Below are positions 56,376-59,036 of a stretch of DNA of 59,170 bases, one piece after another; within the stretch, counting starts at the first letter, position 1, and every line of letters begins with the position of its first letter. Source of the stretch: an uncultured Solirubrobacteraceae bacterium (GTDB lineage Bacteria > Actinomycetota > Thermoleophilia > Solirubrobacterales > Solirubrobacteraceae); contig CADCVR010000064.1 of assembly GCA_902806205.1 (NCBI GenBank), forward strand, positions 1 to 59,170, read 5' to 3'. A program made the position numbers and the translations under genes. The notes beneath the pieces were generated by a model. It searched no databases, was not told the origin of the DNA, and saw only the letters and a program-made list of their open reading frames with translations.

Positions 56376-59036
56376 TCAGGCGGGCGTTCTCGCCGGCCCA
56401 CCGGCGAGCTGCTCGAGCTGTTGAGCGGTCAGCGTCTCGGCGTCCAGCAGCGCGGCCGCCGTCCGGTCCAGCGTGTCCCGCGACGCGGTCAGGATCCGGT
56501 CTGCTCGGCTCTGCGCCTGCAGGACGAGCTTGCGGGCTTCCGCGTCGATGGTGCCGGCCGTCTCCTCGGAGTAGGCGACGAAGCGGCCGTCGTCGTCGGT
56601 CTCCCCGGCGTACCCGATCGGCCCCAGCGCATCGCTCATGCCCAGGTCGCGCACCATGTGATGGGCGATGCGCCCGACCTGCGCCAGGTCGCCCGACGCG
56701 CTGGAGCCGGCCTCGCCGAACACGAGCTCCTCCGCGCTGCGGCCGCCGAGCAGAATGGCCATCTCGTCGAGCAGCGCCGATTTCGAGTGCACCACGCGAT
56801 CGTGGGTGTCGGTGAGCCAGGCACGCGCCAGGGTGCCGCCGGACGAGTTCATGCTGACCATGTGCGGAAGGCGCCCCTCGGGCACGGTGCGCGCGACGAC
56901 GACATGGCCCGCCTCATGGACGGCCACCACCCGCCGCTCGGCGTCGGTGAGCACGTGCGCGCGGGCGATTCCCATCGTCGCCCGCTCGACCGCCTCCTCC
57001 ATCGCGGCCATGGTGATCTCGGAGCCGTTACGGCGCGCGCTGAGCAGCGCCGCCTCGTTCATGACGTTCGCGAGGTCTGCGCCCGACAGACCGCGCGTGA
57101 TGCCGGCGATCGCCCCGAGATCGACGTCGGAGGCAAGCCGCTTGTTTCCGATGTGCACCTCCAGGATGGCCGCGCGCCCGTTGCGGTCGGGCAGGTCGAC
57201 GGTGATGGCACGGTCGAAGCGACCGGAACGCACGAGCGCGGGGTCGAGGATCTCGGGCCGGTTGGTCGCCGCCATGATGATGACCCCGTCGCGCGGGCGG
57301 AAGCCGTCGAGCTCGATCAGGATCTGGTTGAGCGTCTGCTCGCGCTCCCCGTGCCCCTCGGAGTCCCGCCGGGCGCCGATCGCGTCGATCTCGTCGATGA
57401 AGACGATGGACGGCGCCATGGCCCTGGCCTGGCCGAAGAGGTCGCGGACCCGACCCGAGCCCTCGCCGACGATGCCCTCGACGAACTCGGTGGCCGCGAC
57501 GGCCAGGAAGGCGGCGTTGGACTCGCCGGCCACCGCGCGGGCCAGCAGGGTCTTGCCGCACCCGGGGGGGCCGACCAGCAGGAAGCCCTGCGGGAACCTC
57601 GCTCCCATCCGCGTGAAGCGGCTCGGGTCCCTGAGGAAGTCCCTGATCTCGGTGAGCTCGGTGAGGGTCTCCCCGATACCGGCCACGTTGGCGAACGTCA
57701 CGCGCTCGGAGCCCAGCGACTGCTGACCCATCGTGCGGTCGCGCATGGTCAGCCGGCGCTGGCGCTCGGGCGCCTCGAGGATGCGCGTCAACGCCTCGCT
57801 GAGCATGACCTGGCGGATCTCGGTGTCCCCCGAGCGCGCGGCGAGCAGCGCAGCCTCGTTGGTCACGCTCTCGAGATCGGCGCCCGTGAAGCCGATGGCC
57901 CGACTGGCGATCGCGGCCAGGTCGACGTCGGCGGCCAGCGGCTTGCCCCGGGCGTGCAGCGAGAGGATCGCGCGACGGCCGGCCTCGTCGGGCCGGTCGA
58001 CGGAGACGGTGCGGTCGAAGCGGCCGGGCCGCAGCAGCGCCGCGTCGAGGTCGTCGGGGCGATTGGTCGCGCCGATCACGATCGTCCCGGTCTCCCGCGC
58101 GAAGCCGTCCATCTCGGTGAGCAGCTGGTTGAGGGCCTGGTTCTGCTCGTCGCTACCCGCCTTGCCCGCCACCCCCGTCTGGCGCTTGCGGGCCACGGCG
58201 TCGATCTCGTCGATGAACACGATCGCCGGCGCACTCTCGCGCGCCTCCCTGAAGAGCTCGCGCACGCGCGCCGCCCCGACACCGACGAACATCTCGACGA
58301 AGTCCGAGCCCGAGATCGAGAAGAACGTCGCTCCCGACTCACCGGCGACGGCGCGGGCGAGCAGCGTCTTGCCGCAGCCCGGAGGGCCGTACAGCAGCAC
58401 GCCCTTGGGGATGCGCGCCCCGAGCCTGGCGTAGCGCTCGGGGTCGCGGAGGAACTGCGAGATCTCGCGGAGCTCGGCGACGGCCGTGTCCTGCGCGGCA
58501 ATGTCGTCGTAGCGCAGGGTGGTGTCCTCGGCGGTCGCCCGGCGGGAGCCGCTGCGCTGGTTGAACAACCCCGTGCCCGTCCGCCAGCCGATGATGACGT
58601 AGCCGAAGATCAGGACGGTGAGAAGCCCCGGTAGCAGCACCGACAGCTCCGGCAGCACGCTCTTGATGTACTGCTGCTCGATCCTCAGCGGAATCTGGTT
58701 CGAGCTGAGGATCTCGACCACGTCGGCTCCGGCGTCGTCGAGGAACGGCGTGTTGAAGGCAACCGCGTCCCCCCTACGCCGGTATACGCCCTCGACGTAG
58801 TTGTCCGCGCCTAGCACCGTCGCACGGCGGATGTCGCCGCCCTCGGCAAGATCGACGAACGTGGAGAAGTCGATCCGCTCGCCCGTCGGATGCGGCCTGC
58901 TCGCCACCAGCACCTGGACGTAAGCGATCAGGAGGACCACGGCGATGAGGCTGACCCAGAAGCCCGGGGTGTTCAGACGGCGCTTGGGCTCCTCGGCGGA
59001 TCCCCGCTTCTTGGTTCGGTTCGGTCTCAGTTTCAC
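56376..59036 (-). CDS. FtsH-like membrane metalloprotease with two AAA+ modules
   Basis: An 886-residue FtsH relative; ordinary FtsH is about 610-750. Order: cytoplasmic start, membrane helix 1 (27-46), extracytoplasmic part (47-130), helix 2 (131-151), AAA module 1 (about 175-425), AAA module 2 (445-690), M41 protease (695-880). Both AAA modules are complete: Walker A GPPGCGKT at 217-224 and 489-496; Walker B FIDEID at 274-279 and 546-551; Arg-finger segments RPGRFDR and RSGRFDR. Module 1 keeps the FtsH pore motif MFVG (249-252); module 2 has GIVG (521-524) without the aromatic residue. The zinc site is HEAGH (707-711) with D783. It starts at GTG 59036, with TAGGCT 9 nt upstream. Confidence 0.93.
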   Translation of the reverse strand: MKLRPNRTKKRGSAEEPKRRLNTPGFWVSLIAVVLLIAYVQVLVASRPHPTGERIDFSTFVDLAEGGDIRRATVLGADNYVEGVYRRRGDAVAFNTPFLDDAGADVVEILSSNQIPLRIEQQYIKSVLPELSVLLPGLLTVLIFGYVIIGWRTGTGLFNQRSGSRRATAEDTTLRYDDIAAQDTAVAELREISQFLRDPERYARLGARIPKGVLLYGPPGCGKTLLARAVAGESGATFFSISGSDFVEMFVGVGAARVRELFREARESAPAIVFIDEIDAVARKRQTGVAGKAGSDEQNQALNQLLTEMDGFARETGTIVIGATNRPDDLDAALLRPGRFDRTVSVDRPDEAGRRAILSLHARGKPLAADVDLAAIASRAIGFTGADLESVTNEAALLAARSGDTEIRQVMLSEALTRILEAPERQRRLTMRDRTMGQQSLGSERVTFANVAGIGETLTELTEIRDFLRDPSRFTRMGARFPQGFLLVGPPGCGKTLLARAVAGESNAAFLAVAATEFVEGIVGEGSGRVRDLFGQARAMAPSIVFIDEIDAIGARRDSEGHGEREQTLNQILIELDGFRPRDGVIIMAATNRPEILDPALVRSGRFDRAITVDLPDRNGRAAILEVHIGNKRLASDVDLGAIAGITRGLSGADLANVMNEAALLSARRNGSEITMAAMEEAVERATMGIARAHVLTDAERRVVAVHEAGHVVVARTVPEGRLPHMVSMNSSGGTLARAWLTDTHDRVVHSKSALLDEMAILLGGRSAEELVFGEAGSSASGDLAQVGRIAHHMVRDLGMSDALGPIGYAGETDDDGRFVAYSEETAGTIDAEARKLVLQAQSRADRILTASRDTLDRTAAALLDAETLTAQQLEQLAGGPARTPA

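Follow-up and report, generated by a model that had tools for sequence, protein, structure and literature searches.

What does an FtsH protease gain from a second AAA module? The question is raised by a gene near one end of contig CADCVR010000064.1 (NCBI GenBank assembly GCA_902806205.1) of an uncultured Solirubrobacteraceae bacterium, of which positions 1 to 59,170 of the forward strand, the whole stretch of DNA analysed, are referred to here as the window. In the passages cited from PMC2674469, FtsH is a single AAA domain fused to M41, and the expression "two AAA domains" refers to the D1/D2 family (NSF, AFG and CDC48). The window gene encodes a protein that, judged by its sequence, is a variant of FtsH and not an ordinary member, with two full AAA modules between an FtsH-type membrane region and an M41 protease domain. 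Its relatives are double- and triple-AAA FtsHs of some actinobacteria, and their association with a membrane-anchored solute-binding protein is a new finding. Genomes, contigs and loci are designated by G, C and L numbers, respectively; the window is the entire contig C64 of genome G000. The gene and its parts are as follows.

56376..59036, minus strand: double-AAA FtsH gene, 886 residues, GTG start (open reading frame; TIGR01241, 979 bits)
58602..58961, minus strand: membrane region, with predicted transmembrane segments 26-44 and 127-145 flanking an FtsH_ext-like extracytoplasmic domain (hydropathy)
57774..58523, minus strand: AAA module 1, residues 172-421 (Pfam, motifs)
57708..57773, minus strand: inter-module linker, residues 422-443, APERQRRL... 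from A422 (sequence comparison)
56967..57707, minus strand: AAA module 2, residues 444-690 (Pfam, motifs)
56406..56954, minus strand: M41 zinc protease, residues 695-877, with HEAGH at 707-711 and D783 (PF01434)

The reading frame, which starts 134 bases from the contig end, is uninterrupted and yields an intact 886-residue product. AAA (PF00004) and AAA lid (PF17862) are each found twice by Pfam and Peptidase_M41 once (residues 695-877, covering positions 2-191 of the 191 of the model), so that the single AAA module per subunit that defines FtsH is replaced by two AAA domains and two lids. Pfam and NCBIfam together give the order FtsH_ext, AAA, lid, AAA, lid, Peptidase_M41. The FtsH_ext match spans residues 26-116 and is weak yet above its cut-off (27.7 bits vs 25.5); an AlphaFold2 model places helices at residues 24-45 and 124-153. 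The protein passes the NCBIfam FtsH_fam model TIGR01241 (979 bits, cut-off 600) and falls under the cut-off of the CDC48 model TIGR01243 (459.8 bits vs 802.65). Taken alone, module 1 scores higher with FtsH_fam (416 bits) than with PAN (282) or CDC48 (246), and the same ranking is found for module 2 (383, 278 and 221 bits). Module 1 contains Walker A at 217-224, F250 at the pore position, the Walker B residues D276 and E277, the sensor N325 and the Arg fingers R336 and R339; module 2 contains Walker A at 489-496, I522 at the pore position, D548 and E549 of Walker B, and the Arg fingers R603 and R606. Gly689 is retained ahead of the protease, and the distance from the last Walker A to HEAGH is 218 residues, compared with 218-222 in single-AAA FtsHs. 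The initial annotation of this DNA had described two full AAA modules followed by an intact M41 domain; Pfam, TIGR01241 and the motifs bear this out, with F250, I522, APERQRRL from A422, HEAGH at 707-711 and D783 all lying where it had placed them. The AAA-AAA-M41 architecture predicted from these matches is nearly certain.

An assembly artefact is the first alternative that such a layout brings to mind, and it had been named from the outset as what would undo the reading. It was rejected. The two modules share 53.5% amino-acid and 76% DNA identity and their longest common exact word is 20 bases; therefore they are not a recent repeat, and a misassembly is unlikely. A second double-AAA FtsH, of 885 residues, lies on another contig of the same genome (C42, L006); it is 53% identical to the window protein, shares the spacing of 272 residues from Walker A to Walker A, and lacks an FtsH_ext match at E 1e-5. 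Five M41 genes are present in genome G000 (108 contigs, 3.38 Mb, 97% complete), the two doubles and three single-AAA FtsHs of 661, 760 and 547 residues, so that the normal ftsH for which a search had been proposed is present in three copies. The 547-residue protein (L009:4207-5850, on G000:C17) gives no FtsH_ext match at E 1e-5 and has a long branch in the tree of AAA modules.

Further members were detected with a 112-position profile over the module junction, from the end of lid 1 to the Walker A of module 2, which separates doubles from singles, the latter matching its second half only. Full-length junctions were found in 7 of 61 relatives (G000 included), in 12 of 399 genomes sampled from the class and in 5 of 396 sampled from the phylum, these three samples overlapping; 21 other genomes of the phylum sample match only from position ~46-58 on, as single FtsHs do. 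No full-length junction was found in 8 genomes of other groups, and no double FtsH in two other phyla (0/249 and 0/249 at E 1e-28, where there was no positive control). A scan of named genomes, which is not a census, gave at least five loci with a whole or nearly whole junction among the 80 matches listed (L066, L067, L068, L069 and L070), in metagenome-assembled genomes labelled Solirubrobacteraceae, Thermoleophilaceae or Actinomycetes. Among the 10 matches listed from 3157 plasmid records, only FtsHs of single-AAA size were seen. In total, 29 loci in 19 actinobacterial genomes were collected, comprising 25 intact doubles, two intact triples, one gene truncated at a contig end (G535, L211) and one split into several frames (G511, L208). 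The triples, L048 in G043 (1170 residues) and L068 in isolate nzgw85 (1153 residues), each contain three AAA modules and three lids. The window's own order provides 21 of the 29 loci; G034 belongs to the same family as the window and G056 to the same order. Double and triple FtsHs are seen almost only in metagenome-assembled genomes of some actinobacteria. The broken double (L208, L165; G511:C5), which has no intact binding-protein frame nearby, is either a decaying copy or the product of assembly errors. FtsH frames of ~1088 residues were also noted (L189 in G649, L210 in G649:C58, L190 in G610); in L210 a large, intein-like insert directly follows the pore loop and ends in ...LLHNS before RVRDLF, whereas genome G473, of the same family, has a frame of 640 residues.

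The catalytic residues are conserved throughout the family. In counts that leave out L067, a near-duplicate double, all 26 first, all 26 last and both middle modules have the Walker A Lys, the Walker B Asp-Glu pair, the sensor-1 Asn and the two Arg fingers. HEAGH and the DL motif with the Asp that provides the third ligand are found in all 27 intact genes. The pore aromatic is kept in 26/26 first modules (Tyr in 23, Phe in 2, Trp in 1) and in 24/26 last modules, the exceptions being Ile522 of the window and a Met in L045; one of the two middle modules has Leu at this position, and 4 of 40 single FtsHs lack the aromatic. The initial annotation had noted an aromatic kept in ring 1 and lost in ring 2, and had proposed that ring 1 grips the substrate while ring 2 acts as motor or gate. 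The first part is correct for the window protein (F250 and I522) but fails as a rule, so the division of labour between the rings is not a property of the family, and the window Ile is a quirk of this copy. It is very likely that both modules form working AAA rings.

The linkers differ in one residue according to what follows them. The nine single FtsHs compared have a Gly at the boundary between AAA and M41 (as in AGPERK), and a Gly stands ahead of M41 in all 27 doubles and triples. At the junctions between AAA modules this Gly is replaced in 29 of 29 cases (by Ala in 26, Glu in 2 and Thr in 1), Ala422 of the window occupying its place, and the PERxRR that follows is kept in 28, the remaining junction having PDRQRR. 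The title of PDB entry 2dhr describes it as the G399L form of FtsH, and we take its Gly399 to be the hinge between AAA and M41; we infer that it is equivalent to the boundary Gly of the doubles. The Ala-type linker may then couple the two AAA modules more stiffly, with the Gly providing flexible coupling to the protease.

The linker also bears on the origin of the second module, which had been proposed to be a tandem duplication of AAA plus linker; this is upheld by the retention between the modules of the PERxxR found at the AAA-M41 boundary of single FtsHs. A duplication within FtsH is also supported by the profile scores, by which both modules are of FtsH type. A tree was calculated from 94 AAA modules (26 first, 26 last, 2 middle and 40 single; L067 was dropped); all trees were of a quick kind, with support from the Shimodaira-Hasegawa-like approximate likelihood ratio test only and without an outgroup from Cdc48 or PAN. 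The first modules group in one clade (support 99) and the last modules in a second (support 100); therefore the duplication is old and preceded the split of these genes. The branch that unites the two clades had a support of 24 in the first tree, and when nearer singles were added the free quick trees separated first from last modules, at conflicting forks with supports of 35 to 43. A tree uniting all double modules, missed by the free quick search, is 27 log units better and has a p of 0.903 in the approximately unbiased (AU) test. A single tandem duplication of AAA plus linker within Actinobacteria, long ago, is therefore favoured by the best tree, but with weak branch support it is not proven. 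The middle module of G043 falls among the last modules (support 100) and that of nzgw85 among the first (99), which suggests that the two triples arose by independent further duplications; AU tests of three alternatives for the triples gave p values of 0.034, 0.203 and 0.151, so that not all alternatives were excluded. The nearest single-AAA FtsHs, L205, L206 and L207, were found with an N-domain profile in 296 genomes of the phylum and share the unusual N-domain of the doubles. Together with L211:323-2323 and L124, they are single-AAA paralogues with an extracytoplasmic domain like that of the doubles and are candidates for the form that preceded the duplication.

In structure comparisons, the best solved match for residues 444-880 is the FtsH structure 3kds (Z 36), and p97 matches over both modules with Z 26-27; the 50 matches listed contain only FtsH-, PAN/proteasome- and p97-type rings. 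A putative membrane-bound enzyme of stacked rings is a sound inference.

What such an enzyme might act with is indicated by its neighbours. The closest gene in the window, convergent with FtsH, is the following.

54588..56297, plus strand: SBP_bac_5 solute-binding protein with a C-terminal transmembrane anchor (GTGILDKRSFL ... transmembrane segment), start uncertain (PF00496, 159 bits)

Reference proteins encoded in the flanks of the window, L172, L006, L171 and L045 served as tblastn queries (E 1e-8) against the 29 loci and against 75 controls (mean 14 kb) taken from the named-genome scan; 73 of these controls contain a single-AAA M41 frame, two none and none two. The controls are mostly from other lineages, the contrast being partly phylogenetic, and neighbour counts include each reference's own locus. 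Of the 29 loci, 21 (window included) contain a family-5 solute-binding protein, vs 0 of the 75 controls. In 19 of the 29 loci no more than 260 bp separate its match from the FtsH frame, the listed frames overlapping in L168, and in 11 loci the gene is just upstream of FtsH in the same orientation, 7-96 bp away. Where the gene could be read, in 20 loci, the protein ends in GILDK(R/Q) or a close variant, a linker and a transmembrane segment.

The association is also found at the level of genomes. Among the 61 relatives, the binding protein was detected at E 1e-60 in 5 of the 7 genomes with doubles and in none of the other 54 (Fisher 3.5e-6, which overstates the significance because the relatives are not independent). 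The five are G000, G012, G034, G043 and G056, with identities of at least 49% and two further matches of 33% in G012; of the two double genomes without the partner, the FtsH of G002 starts 77 bases from a contig end and genome G009 is 78% complete. Copies of FtsH and binding protein match in G000 (2/2), G034 (2/2), G043 (1/1) and G056 (3/3), G012 having two FtsHs and three binding proteins. Over 19 pairs, FtsH and binding-protein distances are correlated (Mantel r 0.67, a value reached in 0 of 5000 permutations), and in 10 of the pairs the nearest neighbours agree. When partners were swapped within genomes, 3 of 96 arrangements reached the observed correlation, the true pairing included. FtsH and the binding protein co-evolve, and the double FtsH and its anchored partner are quite probably a functional pair.

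Two more specific roles for the partner were tried and rejected. Binding of nickel in the manner of NikA is unsupported beyond membership of family 5, the protein lying below every NCBIfam cut-off and, in the PDB, nearer to Lmo0135 (E 1.6e-23) than to NikA (2.5e-14). A part in an ABC importer is likewise not indicated, as 0 of 16 permease matches in the genome fall on contigs C64 or C42.

Less firmly than the binding protein, CooC/MinD-like ATPases and a divergent lineage of [NiFe]-hydrogenase are linked to the double FtsH. The ATPases were found in 12 of the 29 loci vs 0 of the 75 controls, in tandem in 8 and in three copies in L046, and in a recurrent arrangement the binding protein is followed by the double FtsH and then by ATPases A and B. 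In L006 and L172, ATPase A overlaps the FtsH stop codon, and the best solved match of ATPase B of L172 is CooC (1.3e-15), followed by MinD (3.8e-14). The search of 15 kb of the window detected none of these ATPases. Strong matches to the NiFe large subunit (E below 1e-35) are present in 6 of 7 double genomes vs 10 of the 54 other relatives, and 8 of a further 10 double genomes have them too. The large subunits fetched split into lineage B (RICGICGDNH), which is present with and without doubles, and lineage A, whose motifs in the main form are RACGVCGGVH and DPCMPCTTH. Lineage A occurs in 13 of 17 double genomes vs one (G005) of the 54 relatives without doubles; for the relatives alone the counts are 6/7 vs 1/54 (Fisher 8.7e-7, the relatives again being non-independent). 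Weak matches in the non-double relatives G008, G017, G020, G031, G032 and G041 were left unclassified, as were second copies or pieces such as G034:C40, G029:C589, G535:C109, G392:C57 and G392:C307. Nearby lineage-A large subunits were found at the FtsH loci of G034:C18, G056:C8, G129:C3, G402:C16 and G252:C33, and in G056:C1 the FtsH cluster is flanked by HypC, HypD and HypE.

The solved structure nearest to lineage A is the Cupriavidus enzyme 5aa5, which is named group 1h in the passages cited from PMC9561532. According to the same passages, a group 1m of Actinobacteriota has its S and L genes side by side and a CooC-type ATPase, its best template being 5AA5 (PMC9561532). Lineage A is similar in being actinobacterial, with S and L genes that adjoin in L220, CooC-like ATPases nearby and the same template, and we regard it as putatively group-1m-like, a likeness in described features that gives a lead only. 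FtsH is mentioned 0 times in the main text of that paper (PMC9561532). Large subunits of lineage A are paired (A1, A2) a few kb apart in the divergent, group-1m-like clusters of L238, L245, L250 and L220 (G000:C102, G043:C4, G202:C164 and G129:C3), and in L220 several CooC/MinD-like ATPases accompany the pair. The third anchored binding protein of G012 (L241, G012:C39:857-2515) stands beside lineage-A pieces near a contig start, on a contig with no junction match, and genes for a MoxR-like AAA protein and a CoxE-like VWA protein follow the lineage-A large subunit in G252 (L227:3558-5764). A role of the double-FtsH module in hydrogenase biology is a tentative possibility.

Further neighbours in the window form a run of genes on the minus strand.

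53624..54460, minus strand: Ala/Pro-rich protein, hydrophobic segments near both ends (open reading frame, hydropathy; no Pfam match)
51976..53607, minus strand: BNR-repeat protein, hydrophobic segments near both ends (PF13088; 15/29 loci vs 0/75 controls)
49955..51445, minus strand: PAP2/vanadium-haloperoxidase-like protein, N-terminus lipobox-like by eye (PF01569; 7/29 vs 0/75)
49167..49997, minus strand: DM13-domain protein, N-terminus lipobox-like by eye, start uncertain (PF10517; 8/29 vs 0/75)

An FG-GAP protein (7/29 loci) and a Pro-rich protein (5/29) also recur, with none in the controls. Farther along the window, a Pro-rich protein at 47013-48383 contains repeated CSDGxDNDGDxKxDFPADPGC units that look calcium-binding by eye.

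A mechanism can be proposed from these elements. Six subunits would assemble into a membrane-tethered stack of three rings, the upper AAA ring close to the membrane, then the lower AAA ring and the protease ring; this hexamer would have twelve ATPase sites and, in most members, aromatic pore loops in both rings. Substrate would be gripped by ring 1, handed to ring 2 and threaded into M41. The anchored binding protein would contact the extracytoplasmic domain of FtsH and present or sense a ligand or client. With the CooC/MinD-like ATPases of some loci, the system might assist in the assembly or quality control of complexes that are exported or reside in the membrane, the divergent [NiFe]-hydrogenase perhaps among them. 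A membrane-anchored multi-ring FtsH within such a quality-control module, for membrane proteins or hydrogenase, is a reasonably likely reading, in which ring stacking and function are both putative. Its fullest form, a class of membrane AAA+ proteases with two or three stacked rings (18 ATPase sites in the triples) that would, with the binding protein and CooC-like ATPases, build or police a group-1m-like high-affinity [NiFe]-hydrogenase, is rather unlikely as a whole.

Besides the non-independence of the relatives, several observations weigh against the quality-control module. The AlphaFold2 monomer, modelled from six sequences, has reasonable domains, with a predicted local distance difference test score of 69 and a predicted template modelling score of 0.34, and does not predict their arrangement. 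The partner is missing from the fetched flank in 8 of the 29 loci, at least four of them near contig ends (G002, G535b, G392 and MGR_bin92), and the neighbouring ATPases are below every NCBIfam cut-off. No strong hydrogenase match was found in G009, G540 or G569, and lineage B is the only one among the classified large subunits of G392. In the 17 genomes searched, a lineage-A large subunit lies within ~20 kb on the same contig at only 5 of 27 loci, and neither double of G000 shares a contig with a hydrogenase large subunit (these are on C102 and C79); many contigs are short, which makes the absence of hydrogenase near FtsH hard to read. Finally, an island of exported proteins with a common inheritance could account for the neighbourhood.

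Three rival explanations follow from these points. In the first, the binding protein and the exported neighbours are substrates and not adaptors, FtsH removing their damaged or surplus copies. FtsH degrades membrane proteins, several of the neighbours have hydrophobic segments or lipobox-like starts, and the pair is often adjacent, co-inherited and co-evolving, all of which this explanation would accommodate. However, co-inheritance with a private protease is not required of a client, three single-AAA FtsHs are available in the same genome, and the ATPases of the 12 loci belong to a soluble family; we consider this explanation improbable. Equally improbable is a neighbourhood of no functional significance, in which an island of surface proteins and hydrogenases, inherited or mobile, happens to contain a duplicated FtsH in ordinary membrane quality control. 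The cluster is indeed large and variable, and the partner-less loci and the absence of a hydrogenase beside either G000 copy would fit; against this stand the short distances of the 19 partners, the 11 closely spaced same-strand pairs, copy numbers that match in four of the five partner-bearing relatives (G012 having one extra) and the lower correlation when partners are swapped within genomes. The mixing of double-AAA and ordinary FtsH subunits in one hexamer, the extra AAA forming a partial, regulatory upper tier, agrees with the presence of ordinary FtsH in the same cell and with the hetero-hexamers formed by FtsH families elsewhere, but is very improbable, as the normal distance of 218 residues from Walker A to HEAGH combined with a membrane one module farther away would set the tiers out of register, and first and last modules are all catalytically complete.

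The present labels of these genes hide their distinct architecture, since the NCBI model whose cut-off they pass names them plain "FtsH". One, two or three AAA modules on the same protease would form a natural series in which to ask what extra rings add in force, processivity or gating, a question confounded in Clp and Cdc48 by the unlike nature of their rings. The pairing with an anchored binding protein suggests a route of client recruitment to FtsH that we have not seen described, and the hydrogenase link hints at candidate factors for the biogenesis of enzymes by which trace hydrogen may be oxidised in soils.

That no characterised protein has this layout, as the initial annotation supposed, agrees with the open-access literature and the PDB. 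No FtsH with two, tandem, double or duplicated AAA was found among the open-access titles and abstracts listed, those on FtsH and Solirubrobacter included, and the best 60 of 261 PDB sequence matches are, by name and length, single-AAA FtsH-type proteases or tandem AAA proteins without M41. In the passages cited from PMC7226402, the carriers of two modules are Cdc48, HslU and ClpA/B/C, and FtsH-like proteases consist of one AAA+ domain and a protease domain. With FtsH, YME1 and AFG3L2 the present proteins share the two transmembrane segments around an extracytoplasmic domain, an AAA module leading directly into M41, HEAGH and the Asp of the third ligand, whereas doubles and triples add one or two full AAA modules between the membrane region and this AAA-protease unit. 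With Cdc48, p97, VAT and Cpa they share tandem classic-AAA modules, p97 aligning over ~169-689 of the window protein; unlike these, it has transmembrane segments and a covalently attached M41 domain, and both of its modules score higher with FtsH than with CDC48. In ClpA or ClpC with ClpP, which are soluble, two stacked AAA+ rings feed a protease, and the double FtsH may work in a similar way. Its protease is fused to the rings, whereas that of the Clp enzymes is on a separate subunit and their D2 belongs to another AAA clade, according to the cited passages (PMC7226402).

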